Source: Ignavibacteriales bacterium
Lineage (GTDB): Bacteria > Bacteroidota > Ignavibacteria > UBA10030
DNA length: 64,000 bases
Assembly (NCBI GenBank): GCA_026390595.1
Contig: JAPLFQ010000025.1
Location: forward strand, 62,001-126,000
Direction: 5' to 3'
Both the position numbers and the translations under genes were made by a program. A model generated the notes under the pieces. It was given only the letters and a program-made list of their open reading frames with translations, was not told where the DNA came from and did not search any database. Of this stretch, positions 24,981 through 54,128 are shown in pieces; position 1 is the first letter of the stretch, and every line of letters begins with the position of its first letter.

Positions 24981-26357
24981 CTATCGTAAGACAATCATCG
25001 TTCGCATCATACTTCTCGTTCCGTCGGTCAGCCGGTAAATGTACACTCCGCTCGGAAGGGTCGAAGCATCGAAGCGCACAGTGTACGTACCGGGGTTCTG
25101 CGGACCCTCAGCGAGCACGGCGATTTCCCGACCCAGCAGATCATACACCTTGAGCGATACAGAACTTACCGCTGACCCCTCGGCTCCGCTCGGGGCAGGC
25201 AGCTGATAGCTGATAGCTGTCGTCGGATTGAACGGATTCGGATAATTCTGTTGAAGCTCAAGCGTCTTCGGCAGGCTGCCGGAAACCAGTTCCTTCACAT
25301 CACTGATGAGGCCCAGCCCCGCAGCGACTGACCGCAGGAGCGGCTGCTGACCGGTGCTGAAGTAGTCCTGGCCGAGGGCCCAGATGATCGTTCCCCCGAG
25401 CCCCTGATTTTTGACATACGTCATCTTCTCGCCGATCGAGACGGAGTCATCGTAGCTGATGATGATCGACTGAGTGGGATTGGTGAGATAGGGGACATGA
25501 CCGACGGCATCCCACGACCGTGACCACCCTGTCTGCATCAGCGGTGTGATTGAGCTGTAGGCCTTCTGTGCAGTTCCAACGCCGGGTCCGTACATTGTCG
25601 ATCCGTTGAACTGCCATCCGTAGAAGGGTGTTCCGATGAGCAGTTTCGAATCAGGCACACCCTTCGTTCTGTAAAAGGAGACCGAATTTCCCACCCAACC
25701 TTGATCCGTCTGTGAGAGGTTTCCGTAAAGTGGAGAATTCGGTCCCACCTTCGTGGTCCAGCTCCCGTAGAAGTCGTACGTCATCACACCGACCCAGTCC
25801 AGAATATTCTTCATGACTGTCCAGTCGTAGCCGTTGTTCCAGTCGGTTGCAGGTGCTGCGATGCTCAACGAAAGCGCAGGCGACACGCTTGAAAGGGCCG
25901 TTCGGAGTTCCTGGAACAGGAGCGTTGTATTCGAGCGTCCGGCTGATTTTGGGTATTCCCAGTCCATGTCGACGCCGTCGTAACCATATGTGAGACAGAA
26001 ATCCTTGAGGGCTGTTACAAACCTGGTGCGCGATGCAGGTTTGGCAGCCACCGAATCGAACCGCGGAGTTCGTACAAGATCATATCCACCTACGGAAATC
26101 ACGACGCCGACGCCATTGAGGTGCGCCGCCTGGATGAGCTCCGGATAGAATGTAAATCCGCTCAGATCAAGTGAACCATCCATTTGCGGGAAGATGAACG
26201 CGTGTGCGATCTGCGTGAGATTCCTGTACAGGATCAGGGTATGTGGGAATGATGATTTGTTCCAGCTCGGATAATAGCCGACGACCAGCTTGGGTTGGGA
26301 AAGAGCTGATGAACAAAACAAAGCGAAGAAAACTATTATCCTGAATTTCATCATCAC
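24981..26357 (-). CDS. GH18 chitinase-like hydrolase with T9SS sorting domain
   Basis: Secreted enzyme of 458 residues. A signal peptide (to SSALSQ) precedes a GH18 barrel (about 23-370) with VVISVGG at 85-91 and the catalytic DGVDMDWEY (127-135), in which Glu134 is the proton donor; MTYDFYGSW and the WALGQD end motif complete the substrate site. This fits hydrolysis of beta-1,4-GlcNAc chains (chitin or peptidoglycan). A T9SS domain begins LQQNYPNPFNPTTAISYQL and carries an unusual in-frame insert (PAPSGAEGSAVSS). Possible starts are GTG 26357 or ATG 26354/26351. It lies 8 bases before the FN3 gene. Confidence 0.88.
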   Translation of the reverse strand: MMMKFRIIVFFALFCSSALSQPKLVVGYYPSWNKSSFPHTLILYRNLTQIAHAFIFPQMDGSLDLSGFTFYPELIQAAHLNGVGVVISVGGYDLVRTPRFDSVAAKPASRTRFVTALKDFCLTYGYDGVDMDWEYPKSAGRSNTTLLFQELRTALSSVSPALSLSIAAPATDWNNGYDWTVMKNILDWVGVMTYDFYGSWTTKVGPNSPLYGNLSQTDQGWVGNSVSFYRTKGVPDSKLLIGTPFYGWQFNGSTMYGPGVGTAQKAYSSITPLMQTGWSRSWDAVGHVPYLTNPTQSIIISYDDSVSIGEKMTYVKNQGLGGTIIWALGQDYFSTGQQPLLRSVAAGLGLISDVKELVSGSLPKTLELQQNYPNPFNPTTAISYQLPAPSGAEGSAVSSVSLKVYDLLGREIAVLAEGPQNPGTYTVRFDASTLPSGVYIYRLTDGTRSMMRTMIVLR

Positions 26358-26560: not shown

Positions 26561-29500
26561 CTAGAAATTGAGACGCAAGCCGAGCAGAACCTGCCGGGGA
26601 TTCAGGAAAATCGGAGCATCCCACCACCCGACGTTTATATGGTTGTCGTCAGATTCCCACTGTCCCCACTTGTCGTTACCCCCCTGGAACGGGAACCGGA
26701 GCGATGCCTTGTATTCGTCGTACTGCGTGCGGAGCATGTTCTCCGGGATAAGCCATTTGTTGTTCGTGAGGTTCTTTACCGTCACGACGACCTCGAACGA
26801 AGTGCCGCCGAGAGTGAACGCCTTCGATCCGCGGAAGTCCAGGTTCCAGTAATCGACGACGTCTACATACAAGCGGTTTTTCACATCGGGTTCCTGGGGG
26901 TTCCACAGGAGCCGTCCGCCGTCGCGCCATTCGAAGAAGAGGTTCAGATAGATGCCGCCAAGCAGACGCATGCCTGCAAGCTCCGGACCGAAATCGTTCG
27001 GCGAGTGAATGTTCAGGTTCATGTTGCCGCGTGGCAGCGGATCGGTCGTGGAGAGGTTCGCTGACCGGAGCTCATCCTTTGCCTCGAGCCTGTTCTCGTA
27101 GACCCGGGCCAGGCCGGTCTGTCCGGCGCTCTGCAGCATGTAGTCGAACATGCCGTTGAAGGTCACCCAGCTTCCGAGCGGACGCTCGAGCCGGAGTTCG
27201 ATGCCGCGGACATCGCGGTAAGCGTCCGGGAAGTACGCGGTGACCATGTTGTCGTGATAGTAATTGATGAACTGACGGCTTAGCGGTTCGTTCCGGACAT
27301 CCTTGTAGTACGCCGTGATATTCAACAGGAAGTCCTGGAAGAACATTTGTTCATAGCCGAATTCGTAGGAGACGGTGCGTCCCATCGTGAGGTTCGGTGT
27401 TGGGACCGTGACTCCCGCCTGGTCGATTGTCATGTTGTACATGAACGAAATTGCCGGGCGCTGGTAGAAATGGCCATAGTTGAAATACAGTTTGCTGCTT
27501 TCGGTGATGGGGAAAGAAACGCCGAGCCGGGGTGACGCGTAGATTTGAACCCGGTTTTCCGTTCGCGGGAACCCGGGAGGATTGTCGAGCATGGCGCGGA
27601 AGAGCGTCCAGCGATCATAACCTCCCCATGTGCCGCCAAGATTCTGATAGACGTCATTGTACAGTTTCCGGTAATCATCATCGACCGGAATGCCTGCATC
27701 GAATCCTTCTTTCATAGGATTGAGGTAGTCGAGCCGCACACCGGCGTTCAGGATCATCCCTTCGAATTCAAGCTTGTCCTGAAGATACAGTCCAATCTCC
27801 AGCGGTGTCGCGGTGTAATACTGCCAGAGATCCGGAGTGTAGGAGAGCTGCGATTGCAGCCATGTACCCGTATAAACGAACAGCCGCTGGAGCCGCGCCG
27901 AGAACCCGGCCTCGATCTGGTGATGACGGCCCAATTGTGCGGTGAGGTCTCCCTTGAGCTGCCCGACCAGTGAATACGAGGAGTCAACACGCTGCAGTCC
28001 TCCATAGAGGGCGAACATGTTCAAAGCGTCGTAGCCGAAATTCGTCGATGCATTGGGCGTGCCGAGGGAAGGGACGTTCAGGTATTTGTATGTTGAACCG
28101 TTTGCGTTGGTGAAGGTAAGCGAATCGCCCGATGTTGGTGTAAACGAGTACGGCCGCAATTGCTGGTTGCTATAGCCGAACTGGAGTTCCATCGTGTAGA
28201 ACGCGTTGGAGGACAAAGTGTGTGTCAGCTTTGTGCCGCCGACGAAGTACTGCTGGTCATAATACTGAAGCCGGCTCTTGTTGAAAATCTGCCACAGGTT
28301 ATCCCCGGCGAGCAGGCTCGCTTGCCGGCGAGCGGACGAACCTGTGCTGTTCAGGAAGCCAAAACTGGACGACTGGTCGACCAGAGCGCCCCCATAGCTT
28401 GTAGTTTGGCCGCCGCTGGCAGTCTGCACCTTCGCGTACAGGCCGTTGATGGAGAGCCGCGTATTGTCGCTGAGCGTCGAAGTGAGTTTGAGCTGCGCAT
28501 TCCAATCGAGATAATCGTTTCGGGGACCGACGGGGAACGCGAGCTGGGAGTTTTCATACTTGAAGCCCAGAAGGAATGTTGTATGTTCCGCGTACGCTCC
28601 GAGTATCGGGATGTCTGATCCGGGAAGCGGGCCCGTGATGCTTCCCTCAACAAACATGTCGGGCTTGTCTGCGAACGTATACTGCGGATGCTGGGCCTTC
28701 CACAGAGCCAGCTTCTGGAGCGTATCGAGGCGGCGGTCCTGCGTGAATCTGTTTCCCCATCCGCGGAAGGCGCGAAATTCTGCCGGAACCACGGTGTCTC
28801 CCGTTGGGACACCCGTGATCGCATACTCACCGGCGAAAACGCGGTAGATCCAGGAATCGGTGCTCCACGGATTGGTGCCGAAAAACTTCTTCTGTGCCGG
28901 GGCCATATCTGCCTTCAACGCGACGGTGTAGTGGTCGCGGTGGCCATCTTTTGTGACGACGTTGAGGAGGCCGGAGCGCATCCCGCCGTATTTCGCCTGG
29001 AAGCCTCCGGTCAGGACCTGGATTTCCTCGATGGTTGTCGAATTGAGGGCGAGGTACGAATTCTCCGATCGTGGATCCTGCAGCGAGATGCCATCGATCC
29101 TCACGTCGGTTTCACGTATCGCGCCGCCCCTGACACTGAGCCCATTTCCTTCTGCTCCGCTGACCAGCTGGACACCCTTGACGCGGTTCATGAACTCATC
29201 CACGCGTGTCACCGGCATTTGCTCCAATCGGGATGTCACGATCACTTCCTGTGTCCCTGCCACGTCTGGCTTGATTGTCTCCCGCCGGGCCGTAACCACC
29301 ACCTGCTCCATCTGAACTGCGGACGCTGAGAGTTCAAAATCAACGGTGATTGTCCGATCGAGGTCAACACGAACGCCTTTTTGTACAACCTGGCCATAGC
29401 CAATCACGCTCACCTTGATGACGTACGAGCCAGGCGGCACGTTCAGGATGAAGTAGTATCCCGAAGGATCCGATCCGGCGCCGACCTGACGATCAAACGG

Positions 29501-29698
29501 AACTTCTCTCCCGTCCGAGAGAATCATGTGCGTGATCATCACGTTTGCCCCTGGAAGGGGCTCGCGCGTTTCCTTGTCGACGATCCGTCCGGTAATCTTG
29601 CCGTTGGCGCCCAGTGCCGATGCGGTGGCAAGGAGCGTGATGAACACGACGGTTGTCAGAAATGAAAAGAGTTGTTGGGATGAGCGTAGGCGTTTCAT
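26561..29698 (-). CDS. TonB-dependent outer-membrane receptor (copy 1)
   Basis: Barrel receptor of 1045 residues: signal peptide (1-30), a carboxypeptidase-regulatory-like domain (about 32-115; GKITGRIVDKETREPLPGANV), a plug (about 135-245; MEQVVVTARRE, RVDEFMNRVKGVQLVSG, SVRGGAIRETDVRIDG, FQAKYGGMRSGLLNVVTK) and a 22-strand-type barrel ending QVLLGLRLNF. These move large substrates across the outer membrane using TonB energy. No SusD partner is nearby; the chitinase, FN3 protein and PorV barrel downstream may replace it. AAGGGG precedes the ATG. The substrate is inferred to be amino-sugar oligomers from the GH18 neighbour. Confidence 0.88.
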   Translation of the reverse strand: MKRLRSSQQLFSFLTTVVFITLLATASALGANGKITGRIVDKETREPLPGANVMITHMILSDGREVPFDRQVGAGSDPSGYYFILNVPPGSYVIKVSVIGYGQVVQKGVRVDLDRTITVDFELSASAVQMEQVVVTARRETIKPDVAGTQEVIVTSRLEQMPVTRVDEFMNRVKGVQLVSGAEGNGLSVRGGAIRETDVRIDGISLQDPRSENSYLALNSTTIEEIQVLTGGFQAKYGGMRSGLLNVVTKDGHRDHYTVALKADMAPAQKKFFGTNPWSTDSWIYRVFAGEYAITGVPTGDTVVPAEFRAFRGWGNRFTQDRRLDTLQKLALWKAQHPQYTFADKPDMFVEGSITGPLPGSDIPILGAYAEHTTFLLGFKYENSQLAFPVGPRNDYLDWNAQLKLTSTLSDNTRLSINGLYAKVQTASGGQTTSYGGALVDQSSSFGFLNSTGSSARRQASLLAGDNLWQIFNKSRLQYYDQQYFVGGTKLTHTLSSNAFYTMELQFGYSNQQLRPYSFTPTSGDSLTFTNANGSTYKYLNVPSLGTPNASTNFGYDALNMFALYGGLQRVDSSYSLVGQLKGDLTAQLGRHHQIEAGFSARLQRLFVYTGTWLQSQLSYTPDLWQYYTATPLEIGLYLQDKLEFEGMILNAGVRLDYLNPMKEGFDAGIPVDDDYRKLYNDVYQNLGGTWGGYDRWTLFRAMLDNPPGFPRTENRVQIYASPRLGVSFPITESSKLYFNYGHFYQRPAISFMYNMTIDQAGVTVPTPNLTMGRTVSYEFGYEQMFFQDFLLNITAYYKDVRNEPLSRQFINYYHDNMVTAYFPDAYRDVRGIELRLERPLGSWVTFNGMFDYMLQSAGQTGLARVYENRLEAKDELRSANLSTTDPLPRGNMNLNIHSPNDFGPELAGMRLLGGIYLNLFFEWRDGGRLLWNPQEPDVKNRLYVDVVDYWNLDFRGSKAFTLGGTSFEVVVTVKNLTNNKWLIPENMLRTQYDEYKASLRFPFQGGNDKWGQWESDDNHINVGWWDAPIFLNPRQVLLGLRLNF

Positions 29699-30286
29699 GC
29701 CAAACCCCTTGGTGGAATGATGAACTGCAATGTGTAAACCACTTCGATAATCGACAATCGTTAATCGTTGTTCGATATTCCCCCCACCAAAAAAAGCGGA
29801 TTAACCATGGTGAATAGCGAATATCGAACGCCGAACAGCGAATTACGAAGTTGGGTGGAGTCTACGAAGGGAGCACTGAGCGGACCAACGCTCGCCTAGA
29901 TCTGGCACAGCCTGGTTTATCTGGAGGTTGCGGTCAAGTGACCGCCTCGAACATCAGGATGAACATCGCCACGAGCCATGGAGCACCCATCACTCTGTGT
30001 GCACTTCTCCTTCGGGGGTCAATATATATAACGAAGCCGGGGTTGTCAAGAGGGGAGAGGTGACAAGCGGTGGAAGGCGAATCGCTCGTTGCTGAAAATG
30101 AGAATTCAGAGAAGTTGGCAAAGCTCGAGCATTCGCAGAACACCCTTCGACTTCGCTCGTAAGAGCACTCGCTGCGCTCAGGGTGTCGCATGCTCTTCTT
30201 GTTGGCCTGTGAGTGAAAAGAAAGAGAGACATCCTGAGCGAAAGGAGCGTTTTATGCGACTGTAGTCGAAGGATGCGGTGGGCAAC
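29699..30286. other. Gene-free region with scattered inverted repeats
   Basis: No convincing gene. TTCGATATTC near 29772-29781 faces GAATATCGAACGCCGAA near 29818-29834, related to the palindrome array that begins at 30287. ACACCCTTCG...GCTCAGGGTGT (about 30139-30185) and CATCCTGAGCG...TCGAAGGATG (about 30230-30276) are two further dyads of the stress-repeat type. The TonB receptor promoter should lie in the first ~100 bases but is not clear. Confidence 0.5.
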
Positions 30287-30744
30287 GAATAATTCGACAC
30301 CACACTTCGATATTCAATATTGCTTGTTCGATAGTCGAAATTCGTCTTTGTACAAATGCAGAACACCGAACAATCGAATTCCAAACATCGAAGTTGCTTT
30401 TGGCACTTCGACATTCATCATTGCTTGTTCGATATTGGGAGTTCGTTTTTGTACAAGAAAACGGGCACCCGGCTTGCGCAGCCAGAATGCCCGCTGAATT
30501 TCGAACACCTGCGCCAGAGGCGCATCAGCCTTTGGCTGAGAACATCCGAACTCCGAATACCGAAGTGGTGTTACCCTGCTTCATACTTCATCATTGCTTG
30601 TTCGATATTGGAAATTCGTCTCTGTACAAACAAGACGGGCACCCGGCTTGCGCAGCCAAAATGCCCGCTGAATTTCGAACTCCGAATATCGAAGTGGTGG
30701 TACCCCGATTCATACTTCATCAATGCTTGTTCGATATTCGAGAT
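30287..30744. repeat. Palindrome-hairpin array, left part (modules P1-P4)
   Basis: Four copies of an imperfect palindrome whose left arm runs GAATTTCGAAC...GAAGTGGTG and right arm CTTCATCATTGCTTGTTCGA...AAATTCG; the TTGCTTGTTCGAT core occurs at about 30320, 30421, 30595 and (variant) 30723. Modules P2/P3 and P3/P4 are separated by a hairpin payload CGGGCACCCGGCTTGC...ATGCCCG preceded by TCT.TGTACAA. P3 is itself interrupted by a ~33-base hairpin (TGCGCCAGAGGCGCATC). P4 contains the end of the four-helix-bundle gene. Confidence 0.8.
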
Positions 30745-31133
30745 TCTCTTTTCCCATCCCGTCGGCTCTCAGCCGTCTGCACGCTCTTCACAAATATGGA
30801 AATCAGTTGATTGCATTCGTCCTGGCTTTGCACAAGGCTCTCGGCTGGCTCGTACAGGCTTGCGCGTCCTACAATCTGCAATGTAATCCCTGTCTCTCTT
30901 AATTCCTTGAGAACGACCTTTATCTTGTGGATGAAATCATTCTTCGATTCCGCACTCTGTGCCTCACCGTAGTTCAGAGCAGGCGAAGTGCCTGAGCGGA
31001 CGAGTTGGCCAGCAAGATGATTTCCTGCCTTGGTGCCAGGAAGTGACTCTGCAATCTTAACAACTTGGACCGCGAAATTCACGAGGCGCTTTTCGAGGTC
31101 GAATTCCCTTTTTCCTGCGGATTCTTTGCTCAT
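30720..31133 (-). CDS. Four-helix-bundle protein (23S rRNA IVS-protein family)
   Basis: Protein of 137 residues matching the small helical family found in 23S rRNA intervening sequences and in many free-standing loci (TIGR02436-like). Characteristic blocks are FDLEKRLVNFAVQVVKIAE, GNHLAGQLVRSGTSPALNYGEA and SKNDFIHKIKVVLKELRET. GGGAG nine bases upstream supports ATG 31133. It lies between two palindrome modules where other units carry a hairpin, and its last six codons plus TGA fall inside module P4, giving the tail RISNKH. Members are thought to bind nucleic acid, but the function is unproven. Confidence 0.85.
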   Translation of the reverse strand: MSKESAGKREFDLEKRLVNFAVQVVKIAESLPGTKAGNHLAGQLVRSGTSPALNYGEAQSAESKNDFIHKIKVVLKELRETGITLQIVGRASLYEPAESLVQSQDECNQLISIFVKSVQTAESRRDGKRESRISNKH

Positions 31134-31204
31134 GTATCTTTACTCCCTAGGTTTCTGTTCGAGCAAACTACCGAGAAGGGAAAGCACCTGCCAGCAAATT
31201 CCAT

Positions 31205-31610
31205 TTGCCAATTAGTTCGCGGTGAATTTCGAACGCCGAACATTCGAACTCCGAATACCGAAGTGGTGTCGCCCTACTTCACACTTCATCATTGCTTGTT
31301 CGATATTGGAAATTCGTCTCTGTACAAACAAAACGGGCACCCGGCTTGTGCAGCCAAGATGCCCGTTGAATTTCGAACACCGAATACTCGAACTCCGAAC
31401 AACGAAGTGGTGTTGCCCTACTTCACACTTCATCATTGCTTGTTCGATACTGGAAATTCGTCTCTGTACAAACAAAACGGGCACCCAGCTTGTGCAGCCA
31501 AGATGCCCGTTGAATTTCGAACACCGAATACTCGAACTCCGAACAACGAAGTGGTGTTATCCCACTTCAGACTTCATTATTCCTTGTTCGATATTCGACA
31601 TTGCTTTTCG
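31205..31610. repeat. Palindrome-hairpin array, right part (modules P5-P7)
   Basis: Three more modules with the TTGCTTGTTCGAT core at about 31292 and 31436 and a TTCCTTGTTCGAT variant at about 31580, exactly 144 bases apart. The two spacers are near-identical hairpin payloads (ACGGGCACCC.GCTTGTGCAG...ATGCCCGT). P7 runs up to the end of the T9SS propeller gene (stop at 31613-31615). No gene is seen from 31134 to 31612. Confidence 0.82.
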
Positions 31611-31612
31611 CT

Positions 31613-32947
31613 TTACTTTACCAGCACCATCTTGTTCGTCAGACGAACGCTTCCTGAGGTCAGGACATACATATAGGTGCCTGACGAGAGATGCGATGCG
31701 TCGAACTTCACAGTGTAGGCGCCAGGATTCATGCTCTCATCAACCAGAGTTGCCACTTCGCGTCCCATCAGATCGTACACCTTCAGAGACGTCGCGCCGG
31801 TCTGTGTAAGCGTGAAGCGGATCTGCGTTGACGGGTTGAAGGGGTTCGGATAGTTCTGGGAAAGCGTGTAGCCGGTTGGGATCACATTCTTATCCTGCTC
31901 GACCTGCGTTGCGCCGGTCTTTGCGAAGACTTCTACCCATGAAGCCATCGTTCCATTGAAGCACGCAACATACGCCGTATCGCCGTTCTTGTTGAACGCA
32001 ATACCACGGGGACGAGGATCCGTGCCGAATTCCGGGACCAGAGGATCGTACAACTTGATGCTGTCAACGATCTTCTTTGTCGTAATGTTGTAAGCGTACC
32101 ATCGGTAGCCCTGATACGGAGCATCCGGCAGGCCGGAAGTGGCGTTGCCGCTGGTCGTCCAGAGATAACCGGTCTTCGGACCCCATGTCATCGATTCGGG
32201 GACGAGGCCCATCAGTGAGTCTTTCGGGATGTACGGTCCGAGCGATCCATTGTCACTGTGGAAGATTTTGATCTGTTTCTTGTCGAACAGCGGAACGTAT
32301 ACATCGTTTCCGTCACCCGACACAGCGATTGCGCGAGCGTAGCCGCCGGTAGCGTTGGTGACAGTTCCTGCTGCTGTGAAATCACTGTTCAGGATCGCGA
32401 CCGCGTTTCCGGGAACCACAGGAGCAATGAACACTTCCCCGAAATTGTTAGCCATCGGAGTGCCGAGTGAACTGGTATATCCTGGGATCGGGGCGCGGTT
32501 TGTGAACAGCCCTTTTCCCGTCTTGTAGTCGATCTTCCATATTCTGGCGCTCCACTTGATGGAGAGGATATTGCCAGTGGATGGATCGGTACTGAGCCCA
32601 TAGCCGCTGCCAGTAAGCGTATCGGTTTGTGTAACTCCCTTATCATCTTTTCCCGTCAGGATCTTGATCGGCGAGAATGACGCAGGTTTTCCGTTCGGAT
32701 AGAATACTTGGATAACGCCCGTCTTCACTCCGCCGATACTATCGACGCCGGAGGCGTACGCGTACGATTGAATCCATATCTTGCCTTCTGGGTCGACGGC
32801 GATTCCGTTGTTGATGCCACTCGGCCATTGCTTGTTAGGATAGGTGACGGTATCAGGGAAGTACTTCACGAACTTCCACTGTGCAGTTGCACCAGCAGAG
32901 ACAATCAGCAACAAGCAGACTGTCAAGAAAAGTAGCTTTTTCATCAT
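31613..32947 (-). CDS. Secreted beta-propeller protein with T9SS sorting domain
   Basis: Exported protein of 444 residues with a signal peptide (to AGATAQ). Residues 25-345 repeat short propeller-like strands (NNGIAVDPEGKIWIQSYA, YGLSTDPSTGNILSIKWSARIWKID, ARAIAVSGDGNDVYVPLFDKKQIKIF, RGIAFNKNGDTAYVACFNG), which fits an NHL/SMP-30-like propeller. A T9SS domain follows from LSQNYPNPFNPSTQIRFTL to LTNKMVLVK. No catalytic residues are evident, so binding or adhesion is more likely than enzymatic work. It lies downstream of the IPT lipoprotein, in the same direction as the second TonB module. Confidence 0.78.
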   Translation of the reverse strand: MMKKLLFLTVCLLLIVSAGATAQWKFVKYFPDTVTYPNKQWPSGINNGIAVDPEGKIWIQSYAYASGVDSIGGVKTGVIQVFYPNGKPASFSPIKILTGKDDKGVTQTDTLTGSGYGLSTDPSTGNILSIKWSARIWKIDYKTGKGLFTNRAPIPGYTSSLGTPMANNFGEVFIAPVVPGNAVAILNSDFTAAGTVTNATGGYARAIAVSGDGNDVYVPLFDKKQIKIFHSDNGSLGPYIPKDSLMGLVPESMTWGPKTGYLWTTSGNATSGLPDAPYQGYRWYAYNITTKKIVDSIKLYDPLVPEFGTDPRPRGIAFNKNGDTAYVACFNGTMASWVEVFAKTGATQVEQDKNVIPTGYTLSQNYPNPFNPSTQIRFTLTQTGATSLKVYDLMGREVATLVDESMNPGAYTVKFDASHLSSGTYMYVLTSGSVRLTNKMVLVK

Positions 32948-53700: not shown

Positions 53701-54128
53701 CGAACAACGAGAACGCGCTGATCATTCAGAGCAACCGGATTGCGAACCAGTACCTTCAGGAGTTTGCCGCCCGATACAAGGACGCGGGCGGTGCGGATAA
53801 GATCCTCGTGGGAGTTGATAGAGCGGATGATCAGGTTCCCTCCGCATTTTCGCTCTCACAGAACTATCCGAATCCGTTCAATCCGACAACAGCAATCAGC
53901 TATCAGCTAACAGCTCATAGCTTCGTGAACCTGGTTGTCTTTGACGTTCTGGGGAGGGAGGTCTCCACGCTCGTGAACGACACACGACGCGCGGGAACGC
54001 ACATCGTTCATTGGGACTCTTCGTCCTTGCCGAGTGGCGTGTACTTCTATCGACTCAATGCTCTTCCCGTGGGCAATAGCCGGACGGCAGGTTTCGTGGA
54101 GACGAAGAAGATGGTCTTTGCGAAGTAA
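50772..54128 (+). CDS. Large secreted phospholipase-D-like protein with lamin-tail and T9SS domains
   Basis: Exported protein of 1118 residues. Order: signal peptide (to LFGQ), lamin-tail domain (about 22-190; IVISEVYGGGGNSGS...WKNDFVELYNP), an Ig-like region, an OB-fold-like domain (about 365-520; SVRGIVTAAKEFGGPAYIQDG), an FN3 domain (about 540-630), then two PLD halves with HKD motifs HNKFLIID and HHKYGIVD, each followed by TGSWNLT / TGSHNWT. A T9SS domain from LSQNYPNPFNPTTAISYQL to TKKMVFAK ends it. Expected activity is phosphodiester hydrolysis (nuclease or phospholipase) outside the cell. ATG 50772 has AGGAG; the frame to 50700 is rejected. Confidence 0.87.
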   Translation: MRLRVLCAMFGIVLSAPLFGQVADHIVISEVYGGGGNSGSTWKNDFVELYNPTNAPVTLVNWSVQYASATGSFGTTNLHVFSGIIQPKSFFLIQEAPGAGGTKDLPAPDATGILALSGTQGKVALSSGSTPVTGPTDPSVVDFVGYGVASSFEGSGPAPLLSNTTSAERKASATSTDVTLGPGGSEEKSGNGRDTNNNAGDFVAQSNINPQNSATPKEPPPAIQAGIGVASVLPLIAKADTGIQATIILHGVSDAPITGLRFAKHPLLDWSRASFSVTVSNGGQSLLQQTRDSVKVTGFTITAIDSIMIRIAGLAAPDTTVKILFSLESGAGSDSTALVTPLPSFVLYGNPQAVAVVKVNDPQGIPLNLQRPVSVRGIVTAAKEFGGPAYIQDGSGGLAVFDQTFENAVKIGDEVTITGTITQFNGLTELAGVTLHKINSSGNEVIPVVVTCAQLTRDGSNGIEFYEGMLVQLNRVTVRNALGQPVSVWGVSGSGSNFWLRDETDSIQVRIDGDVTSIANTPAPAGEFDLVGVVGQFVATPPFVGGYQVMPRFSTDIFSKGPVITVLPLERSITPTGFDVQWETAKPGSNYARYGRTRAYELGVIGNATPQTVHRITLSGLSPATTYHVQAYSVSGTDTSFAGDRVISTASQGSTGQINVYFNKSVNTSLARGDTAKGNANLTELLVRRINAAKKSIDCALYSMSGQVGQTIASALSEAWRRGVKVRFIIERDNMSAGTGTTINQYIVPAGIPWITDDYDAVNGGVGLHHNKFLIIDYRGGTPDQAWVWTGSWNLTDSGTNDDYQNAIEIQDQSLAGAYTAEFNEMWGSDSTTSNAANSRFGARKLDNTPHVFNVNGTPVELYFSPSDRTTSHILSTLAKAQNSINVALLTLTRSDIAGAMKSKKDAGVRVRGVLDNGTDTGSQYSFLTTGGVDIRLKSNTPGLLHHKYGIVDAEVTTAAQYVITGSHNWTSAAETSNNENALIIQSNRIANQYLQEFAARYKDAGGADKILVGVDRADDQVPSAFSLSQNYPNPFNPTTAISYQLTAHSFVNLVVFDVLGREVSTLVNDTRRAGTHIVHWDSSSLPSGVYFYRLNALPVGNSRTAGFVETKKMVFAK

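Follow-up and report, generated by a model that had tools for sequence, protein, structure and literature searches.

A four-helix-bundle gene in a palindrome array as a putative member of a widespread family of heptad-armed, IVS-like elements

Why does a small gene of the 23S rRNA IVS protein family lie among palindromes and hairpins between two protein genes? The array that raises this question is part of a 64,000-nt stretch of DNA (the window) from a 4.77-Mb draft genome, and is flanked by a TonB-dependent receptor gene (26561-29698, - strand) and a 444-aa gene (31613-32947, - strand) whose product carries a C-terminal sorting domain and a marginal NHL match; the gene is thus not inside an rRNA gene. 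The array is composed of seven copies of one half-module, six clear copies of a second, four GC hairpins and a 137-aa gene on the - strand (Table 1). The 137-aa protein, predicted to form a four-helix bundle (4HB), matches TIGR02436 (1.2e-20, 73.8 bits; curated cut-off 24) and PF05635 (2.7e-10, 40.8 bits; curated cut-off 33.8), and its sole solved relative by sequence is 2rld (1.4e-11), with five chains in the entry. Near relatives are frequent, 77 of 100 genomes giving a match at E 1e-8, with subfamilies mixed.

The repeat search places the P modules and the hairpin CGGGCA...TGCCCG, in four copies, where an earlier note on this DNA had located them, far above chance expectation. The P family comprises five copies with identities of 71-100% and start-to-start spacings of 129, 569, 144 and 144; P5, P6 and P7 are exactly 144 apart, as had been noted, and Tandem Repeats Finder reports a 144-bp unit at 31223-31593 (2.6 copies, 93% matches, score 644). 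The described count of seven palindromes holds for one half-module, whose core TTGTTCGAT occurs at seven places in the array (repeat families D1, D3 and D4 pooled), and not for the other, which has six clear copies; because its seventh copy is only a 62% match (30280-30313), P1 amounts to no more than half a palindrome, which the following half completes. The stop codon (30720-30722) and the end of the 4HB gene do lie inside P4, with the last 7-8 codons overlapping the repeat copy 30651-30745 instead of the last six codons and stop as first described. Folding, suggested as a check in the earlier note, gives stable structures: all five folded P windows are more stable than shuffles (z -2.0 to -4.4), the P1 region 30304-30398 reaches -29.9 kcal/mol (z -3.8), and both of the two hairpins folded, out of four, reach -24.9 kcal/mol (z -5.3 and -3.9). 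The half-modules are runs of degenerate 7-nt units. Identity at lag 7 is 0.353 in the array vs 0.249 in the whole window, and at lag 14 it is 0.313 vs 0.252; none of the other lags from 3 to 15 exceeds the window value by more than 0.02 in the array.

Table 1. Features of the array and its surroundings, in window coordinates
Feature	Position	Strand	Basis
Further palindrome of the same heptad kind, absent from the earlier note	29737..29857		I2, D6, D7; lag-7 scan
P1 half-module A' (30304-30343) closed by next half A (30361-30394)	30304..30394		D3, D4
P2 (A 30361-30394, A' 30405-30444)	30361..30444		D3, D4
Hairpin payload 1	30462..30493		D5; -24.9 kcal/mol, z -3.9
P3, one half degenerate	30533..30617		D1, D3, D4; z -2.0
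Hairpin payload 2	30636..30667		D5
P4, holds 4HB gene end	30668..30746		D1, D4
3'-side heptad arm of 4HB gene (half-module A' of P4), overlapping stop codon	30707..30746		repeat family D1
4HB gene, S23/23S rRNA IVS protein family, 137 aa	30720..31133	-	TIGR02436, PF05635
5'-side heptad arm of 4HB gene (half-module A of P5)	31224..31264		repeat families D1, D7; 7-nt period
P5	31224..31315		repeat families; z -3.3
Hairpin payload 3	31334..31365		D5; -24.9 kcal/mol, z -5.3
P6	31368..31459		repeat families, tandem array; z -2.2
Hairpin payload 4, closest to stop of the 444-aa gene	31478..31509		D5
P7	31512..31603		repeat families; z -4.4

The same genome holds 11 TIGR02436 matches, flanked, mostly on both sides, by 7-nt runs that are specific to each locus. 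Flank pairs look reverse complementary: AGACGGT-AGACGGA... faces ...TACGTCTCACGTCTTAC at one locus, and GATTGTC-GATGGTG-GATTGTC faces CAATCGA-CAATCGA-AAATTGA at another. Across 156 4HB loci, lag 7 rises above threshold in at least one arm at 134 and in both arms at 89, against 4-6 loci with one arm and none with both at control lags 5, 10 and 11, and 14 and 7 loci, respectively, at lag 8. An arm over threshold is absent at lag 7 from 22 of the 156 loci, among them a truncated copy of the same genome (L049) without an upstream arm. The best 42-nt stretch in 81 flanks from this and related genomes has a lag-7 identity of 0.577 vs 0.415 in 70 control pieces from the same loci and a lag-14 identity of 0.543 vs 0.409, the remaining lags from 3 to 15 lying within 0.03; in 182 flanks of 91 further loci the lag-7 values are 0.610 vs 0.409. 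The first set contains 30 loci of relatives, about one per genome, among the matches listed. The further set contains 80 loci from named genome contigs, the best 80 of 127 and chosen by likeness to one protein (L039), together with loci from 11 of the 16 cyanobacterial plasmid records found. The contig loci come from Acidobacteriota (24), Bacteroidota (24) and, in ones to fours, Planctomycetota, Chloroflexota, Gemmatimonadota, proteobacterial groups, Bacillota, CPR and others; altogether the 4HB loci span about 15 phylum labels, taken from record titles. Loci with flanks below the required length were excluded throughout, and two loci, L013 (the same locus as L039) and L016 (with a run of N, on a contig shared with L120), were included in the first-set period (81 flanks) and complementarity (40 loci) tests and excluded from the uniform complementarity, RNA-duplex, unit-protein, arm-count, unit-order and GIY-YIG/PIN tests.

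The two arms are inverted copies of each other. Aligned to the reverse complement of the downstream flank, the upstream flank scores a median of 42 vs 21 for mispaired flanks in the 91 loci (p=1.5e-37), and 17 of 91 exceed the 99th percentile of mispaired flanks, a cut-off raised by the many loci with a common unit; in the first set the medians are 32 and 20, with 16 of 40 loci above the 99th percentile. Under uniform treatment, 98 of 126 loci have the open reading frame of the S23 family between ends whose complementarity equals or exceeds the mispaired 95th percentile. The immediate flanks of the window gene score 23, below the mispaired 95th percentile of 30, beside several competing half-modules, and its arms were read from the repeat families. 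Arms have a median length of 41 nt (quartiles about 34-58 nt). Where both are strongly periodic, their best lags are (7,7) at 79 loci, (8,8) at five, (9,9) at two and (6,6) and (6,7) at one each, and in 107 of 227 arms the two most variable unit positions are adjacent, against an expectation of one third (p=1e-5). The match falls when the units of one arm are put in random order (p=8.5e-8 over 81 loci; 15 of them singly at 5%), so the arms mirror each other beyond a common core, though modestly. Upstream windows are purine-rich in 25 of 31 cases and downstream windows pyrimidine-rich in 20 of 33 in this and related genomes, a skew that is weaker in the wide set (41/64 upstream, 31/68 downstream).

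Heptad arms, common around 4HB genes, are seldom seen around genes of two other small, patchily distributed families from related genomes. GIY-YIG genes have one arm at 3 of 25 loci and both at none (30 loci, 26 entered, 25 with both flanks), PIN genes have one at 4 and both at 2 of 29 (29 of 30 with both flanks), and 4HB genes in the same test have one at 29 and both at 20 of 37. PF05635 itself is present in 39 of the 41 genomes of the near set and in 90 of 118 genomes of a phylum sample, and in none of 14 control genomes. The proposal that the IVS-type protein is part of a repeat-spreading system is therefore partly supported: the gene belongs with repeats, more broadly than proposed, and may spread with them.

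We consider it probable that gene and arms are one widespread small IVS-like foldback element, whose protein recognises the heptads and which spreads; both recognition and movement are what we infer. A 4HB gene would be enclosed by two inverted arms of tandem units, usually of 7 nt, and the protein, whose relatives crystallise as pentamers, would recognise its own element's heptads. This element would spread as a foldback or homing-like unit via host replication or repair, and slippage and copying between the arms would keep them matched. In the window, an element inherited at its slot would have been followed by tandem multiplication of a 144-bp arm-plus-terminator unit. To our knowledge, no catalytic site is known in the 4HB family, and neither a transposition event nor a target-site duplication nor an enzymatic activity was seen for 4HB elements in this analysis.

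The heptad unit tracks the protein subfamily, across phyla and within one slot. Over 118 loci, protein similarity correlates with heptad similarity (Mantel r 0.229, p<=0.001); a heptad is shared by 80% of pairs with a normalised protein score >0.75 (35 pairs), by 35% at 0.6-0.75 (508 pairs) and by about 1% below 0.5, counts that keep pairs from one genome or isolate. Pairs from different phyla share a heptad in 27.6% of cases above a score of 0.6 (279 pairs) vs 0.6% at 0.3-0.5. Among near relatives of the window protein, 29 loci inspected by eye divide into a DLEDRL type with GAATNNN/GAACNNN units and a DDIQ type with CAATNNN units, and the motif TTCCTTGTTCGATATTCG is common to a locus of the DLEDRL type (L247) and the P7 of the window. 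P as a universal repeat of 4HB genes was dropped once the flanks within the same genome had revealed locus-specific units, different 4HB subfamilies carrying different heptads. Instead of recognition, common descent of gene and arms may explain the link between protein and heptad.

The corresponding slot of the sister species G002 holds an orthologous 4HB gene (L230:1932-2321), 57-59% identical to the window gene, two P-like palindromes (by eye) and one hairpin only, AAAAGCATCCCGGC...GTCGGGATGCTTTT on the - strand, with an A-tract and a T-tract. In position and shape this hairpin looks like the intrinsic terminator of the neighbouring 444-aa gene. Most simply, the four hairpins of the window are the neighbour's terminator, multiplied with the arm via 144-bp tandem duplication; this terminator reading rests on fold and position, and none of the four hairpins in the window was flagged by a consensus terminator scan. 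The most economical history has one element inherited at the slot, followed by tandem multiplication of arm and terminator in the window lineage. The earlier note had read the array as cassettes of one spreading P module, with the hairpin and the 4HB gene as cargoes that can replace each other. The layout in the window fits such cassettes, to which we nevertheless give hardly any credence, given that the G002 slot has the gene and one terminator-like hairpin, that the further copies fit tandem duplication and that other 4HB genes carry other heptads. With these findings the interchangeable cargo falls, while the central idea of that note, a protein tied to spreading repeats, stays.

Further copies in the same genome have FtsA and FtsZ, or two BatA/VWA proteins, as their neighbours. 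The earlier note had suggested comparing close strains for payload gain or loss; elements are present or absent between sister species. The slot between two BatA/VWA-type genes contains an element in G000, G001 and G005 and is empty in G002 and G003, with no arms and no trace. The slot between ftsA and ftsZ, whose families were confirmed, contains a 4HB gene in 11 of 41 genomes and a gap of about 80-300 nt (hand count) in 26, the remaining four being unjudged (G013 and G018, no match; G032, one half; G004, two contigs). The empty ftsA-ftsZ slot of G002, examined in full, lacks arms; among eight other empty ones examined, G031 (0.75) and G033 (0.68) have a heptad stretch. At a third compared slot (L052), G002 is without the gene, yet heptads are present. 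No target-site duplication is evident by eye at the two presence/absence slots.

These slots bear on a reading that takes heptad palindromes for ordinary repeats prone to slippage, in which 4HB genes land by chance as passengers. Quasi-palindrome template switching is reportedly a known mutational process (PMC3820800), the L052 slot of G002 holds heptads without a gene, and gene-less heptad palindromes exist. In 453 kb of the same genome, consisting of 21 stretches of which seven were picked because they match the window array and eleven contain 4HB genes, there are 51 lag-7 segments vs 1-5 at lags 4, 5, 8, 10 and 11, and 21, 13 and 14 at lags 6, 9 and 12 (codon period); without the seven array-matching stretches, the count is 41 vs 2-4 in 316 kb. 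Of 34 tested segments with no known 4HB gene within 700 nt, 12 are self-inverted above the control 95th percentile; a first inverted-partner test of gene-less segments yielded 4 of 41, having overlooked those palindromes that had been fused into a single segment. Against passengers stand the lack of arms at the empty bat slot in both G002 and G003 and at the empty ftsA-ftsZ slot in G002, the rarity of heptads around GIY-YIG and PIN genes, the five sampled genomes with zero 4HB genes and no heptad excess (3 segments vs a background of 2.5, 304 kb), and a unit that follows the protein group within one slot. The slot data now speak against the passenger reading, which we rate as very improbable. 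That the unit goes with the protein subfamily suggests a gene and arms that travel together as one element.

The 11 proteins of the ftsA-ftsZ slot form one clade relative to seven outside 4HB proteins (support 100/100). By eye, the elements of G000, G005, G015 and G020 have GCAGATT-type arms and those of G001, G003, G007, G008, G014 and G022 have AGTA-type arms; with G038 apart, heptad type maps to a single change on the tree, at a branch with support 80/86. Monophyly of the slot proteins by host genus is rejected (p-AU 3.7e-5) in this tree of 107 columns and only 3 starred branches, and the G000 protein is 78% identical to that of G020, from another genus, and 53% to that of G001, from its own. 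Two protein groups with two units, together with genus non-monophyly, indicate that the unit follows the protein inside the slot and that the element departs from the host genus. Homologous recombination of a small region, or old duplication and loss, could produce this pattern. The slot thereby amounts to a natural experiment, with two protein groups and two units. The ftsA-ftsZ-slot proteins of G000 and G005 differ with pN 0.11 and pS 0.81 (saturated), which shows that purifying selection maintains the protein. This selection, the unit-protein code and the placement between co-directional genes also count for a regulatory operator, the protein binding heptads to control its own operon, with co-evolution of regulator and site and no mobility. 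Such an operator is set against the departure of the ftsA-ftsZ element phylogeny from host genus, the traceless absence at two slots in sister species and the heptad segments that have no known 4HB gene within 700 nt, and we judge it distinctly improbable.

The orientation of the genes bears on another alternative, an IVS acting at the RNA level, in which the arms pair in the transcript, RNase III cuts and the operon insertion is released harmlessly as in 23S rRNA. Among 113 loci with both neighbours no more than 600 nt away (121 entered; neighbours taken as the longest open frames), the 4HB gene has co-directional neighbours and runs in sense with them at 81 and in antisense at 11; the neighbours are convergent at 14 and divergent at 7. 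The 81:11 excess of sense favours the RNA-level account, as does the RNA duplex of the two sense flanks, with a median of -102.4 vs -84.7 kcal/mol for mispaired ones, and as does the Coxiella IVS, which in the available excerpts of PMC4990558 has an S23p ORF, a 28-bp terminal stem, cleavage by RNase III in vitro and, directly before S23p, three GACAGAT heptamers and a GACAGAA, in strain-variable number. Sense and antisense duplexes, however, do not differ in strength (p=0.16), and G.U over mirror-image mismatches show no excess (142 vs 186, the opposite and hence wrong direction, p=0.017), again with none in a permissive alignment (1472 vs 1517). Selection for a sense-RNA stem was rejected on this absence of the G.U excess looked for; the lack of G.U bias points to DNA as the level at which arm matching is maintained, and an RNA stem could form anyway. 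The RNA-level account also leaves the 7-nt unit unexplained, and overall we regard it as unlikely.

The preferred reading, a mobile element made of gene and arms, shares much with the rRNA IVSs themselves. These were found decades ago and, according to the same excerpts, encode an S23/IVS protein without known function, which in Xanthomonas is a homopentamer (PMC4990558); rRNA insertions of CPR likewise carry IVP ORFs (PMC11270868, excerpts). Like the 23S rRNA IVSs of Coxiella and Leptospira, the elements described here have a protein of the same family, encoded between inverted terminal repeats and in sense in the transcript, and few sites are reused in many species, with mobility suspected. 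Unlike them, copies here lie between protein genes in many slots, with up to 18 matches per genome, and have heptad arrays of subfamily-specific units on both sides. A shared slot between protein genes is also on record, in the excerpted text of PMC5524665, for two Flavobacterium strains, in which a 4HB gene lies between those for guanylate kinase and nicotinate-nucleotide adenylyltransferase. Avd of diversity-generating retroelements resembles PF05635 in sequence and structure (PMC10053308, in the portion available). Those retroelements differ in that reverse transcriptase (PF00078) is not found in 32 of the 41 genomes here. A reverse-transcriptase partner for the 4HB gene was rejected with PF00078 in only 9 of 41 genomes; the one match in the window's genome is on a contig (C2) holding none of the 11 TIGR02436 matches.

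Two further classes of elements resemble the 4HB elements in architecture. Foldback transposons (Drosophila FB and kin) have long terminal inverted repeats of short tandem subrepeats, and by computation the 4HB elements too have terminal inverted repeats of tandem subrepeats; they differ in being bacterial and in carrying a 4HB gene and no known transposase. RAYTs, the genes associated with REP/BIME, are Y1 transposases. As with them, the gene here is flanked by palindromes of a kind also dispersed gene-less in the genome; it differs in encoding a small helical bundle without known catalysis, with several unit families per genome.

A wider proposal is that these are a new kind of bacterial mobile element, in which a catalysis-free 4HB oligomer reads the 7-nt code of its own arms and homes into particular operon slots, with the 23S rRNA IVS as its long-known special case and the heptamer arrays of Cyanobacteria, Bacteroidetes, Geobacter and Xanthomonas as gene-less derivatives; we hold it tentatively, as possible though open to doubt. 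Excerpts of the respective reports describe TAACTGA heptamer arrays in Beggiatoaceae, Cyanobacteria and Bacteroidetes (PMC4679880), GGGAATC arrays in Xanthomonas, with 70 and 75 inverted pairs in two genomes (PMC4692102), and MTYCTGA arrays in Geobacter, whose class 3 sites switch strand (PMC2700814). These arrays share with the arms intergenic tandem 7-nt units, partly in inverted pairs, and differ in that the excerpts of PMC4679880, PMC4692102 and PMC2700814 tie no gene family to them. Heptamers before the Coxiella S23p and heptamer arrays without a gene partner were thus known, and within the excerpted literature searched nothing links heptad arms with 4HB genes in general. If the S23/IVS protein and the unexplained heptamer arrays are joined, both puzzles become one question of binding to cognate vs non-cognate heptads.

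Across 23 genomes uncorrected for relatedness, sampled as stretches of up to 20 kb taken irrespective of nearness to 4HB genes, those with more 4HB genes show a larger heptad excess (rho 0.60, p=0.0026). Thirteen genomes with four or more 4HB genes have 79 segments vs a background of 19.5 in 938 kb, and G002, with nine 4HB genes, has zero lag-7 segments in the 100 kb sampled. Within the window's genome, the gene-less arrays weakly resemble its own 4HB arms: the own value is reached by 11 of 300 random sets with the seven array-matching stretches excluded, and by 104 of 300 with the window also excluded.

At least two motifs of a second palindrome family, CCTTCGACT...CGCTCAGG, are present at 9 of 29 loci of the GIY-YIG control family, counted per locus, at none of the 30 PIN control loci and at 3 of the 39 loci of the four-helix-bundle (4HB) family. 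Flank complementarity exceeds the 95th percentile of mispaired arms, drawn from different loci, in 8/25 GIY-YIG loci. Together, these palindromes and the GIY-YIG genes look like a parallel gene-plus-palindrome system.

In the relative G003, a GIY-YIG gene is the next gene after the TonB receptor gene, the place occupied by the 4HB element in the window's genome and in its sister G002. Since the G003 contig ends at this gene, a 4HB gene may still lie farther on. In G002, the palindrome upstream of the array surrounds a further GC hairpin, which is again a hairpin flanked by heptad arms.

For a minority of 4HB genes the arm unit is not seven nucleotides long, but its length is equal in both arms; the period-6 unit, CCTAAA, is similar to a telomere repeat. 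On cyanobacterial plasmids, one 4HB gene is flanked by cas6 and cas4 (L110, with long, perfect AAAAGCT and AAAAGCC runs) and another by cas10 and a cmr3-family gene (L114).

Draft contigs break off at element slots in G005 (C244/C355) and G004 (C23/C204), the loci for the two genomes being L203, L217, L320 and L321, with the G005 breaks falling inside the element, and such elements are therefore probably undercounted in draft genomes. Three 4HB copies (L049, L202, L206) are apparently decayed, although assembly errors are possible: one lacks a start and adjoins an ABC transporter gene, one carries a frame shift, as judged by eye, and one an in-frame stop.

Two repeats in the window, a heptad run and, in a different gene, the second palindrome type, seem by eye to fall inside coding regions where C-terminal sorting domains have their NPxT motif, and they appear to insert extra residues there with the frame kept.

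Location of palindromes, repeats, arms and genes
Feature	Location	Detail
Second palindrome family	window 30139-30275; L323, L325, L327, L332, L343, L349	
GIY-YIG gene	L231:2139-2495 (G003, at contig end)	PF01541 1.6e-15
Palindrome around GC hairpin	L230:1541-1605 (G002)	enclosed hairpin CCCGCCCGACCGCC...GGCGGGCGGG
Heptad run, apparently coding	window 53874-53936	by eye
Second palindrome type, apparently coding	window 24981-26357	by eye
Period 6 arms	L031	
Period 8 arms	L035, L114, L181, L187, L191	
Period 9 arms	L182, L186
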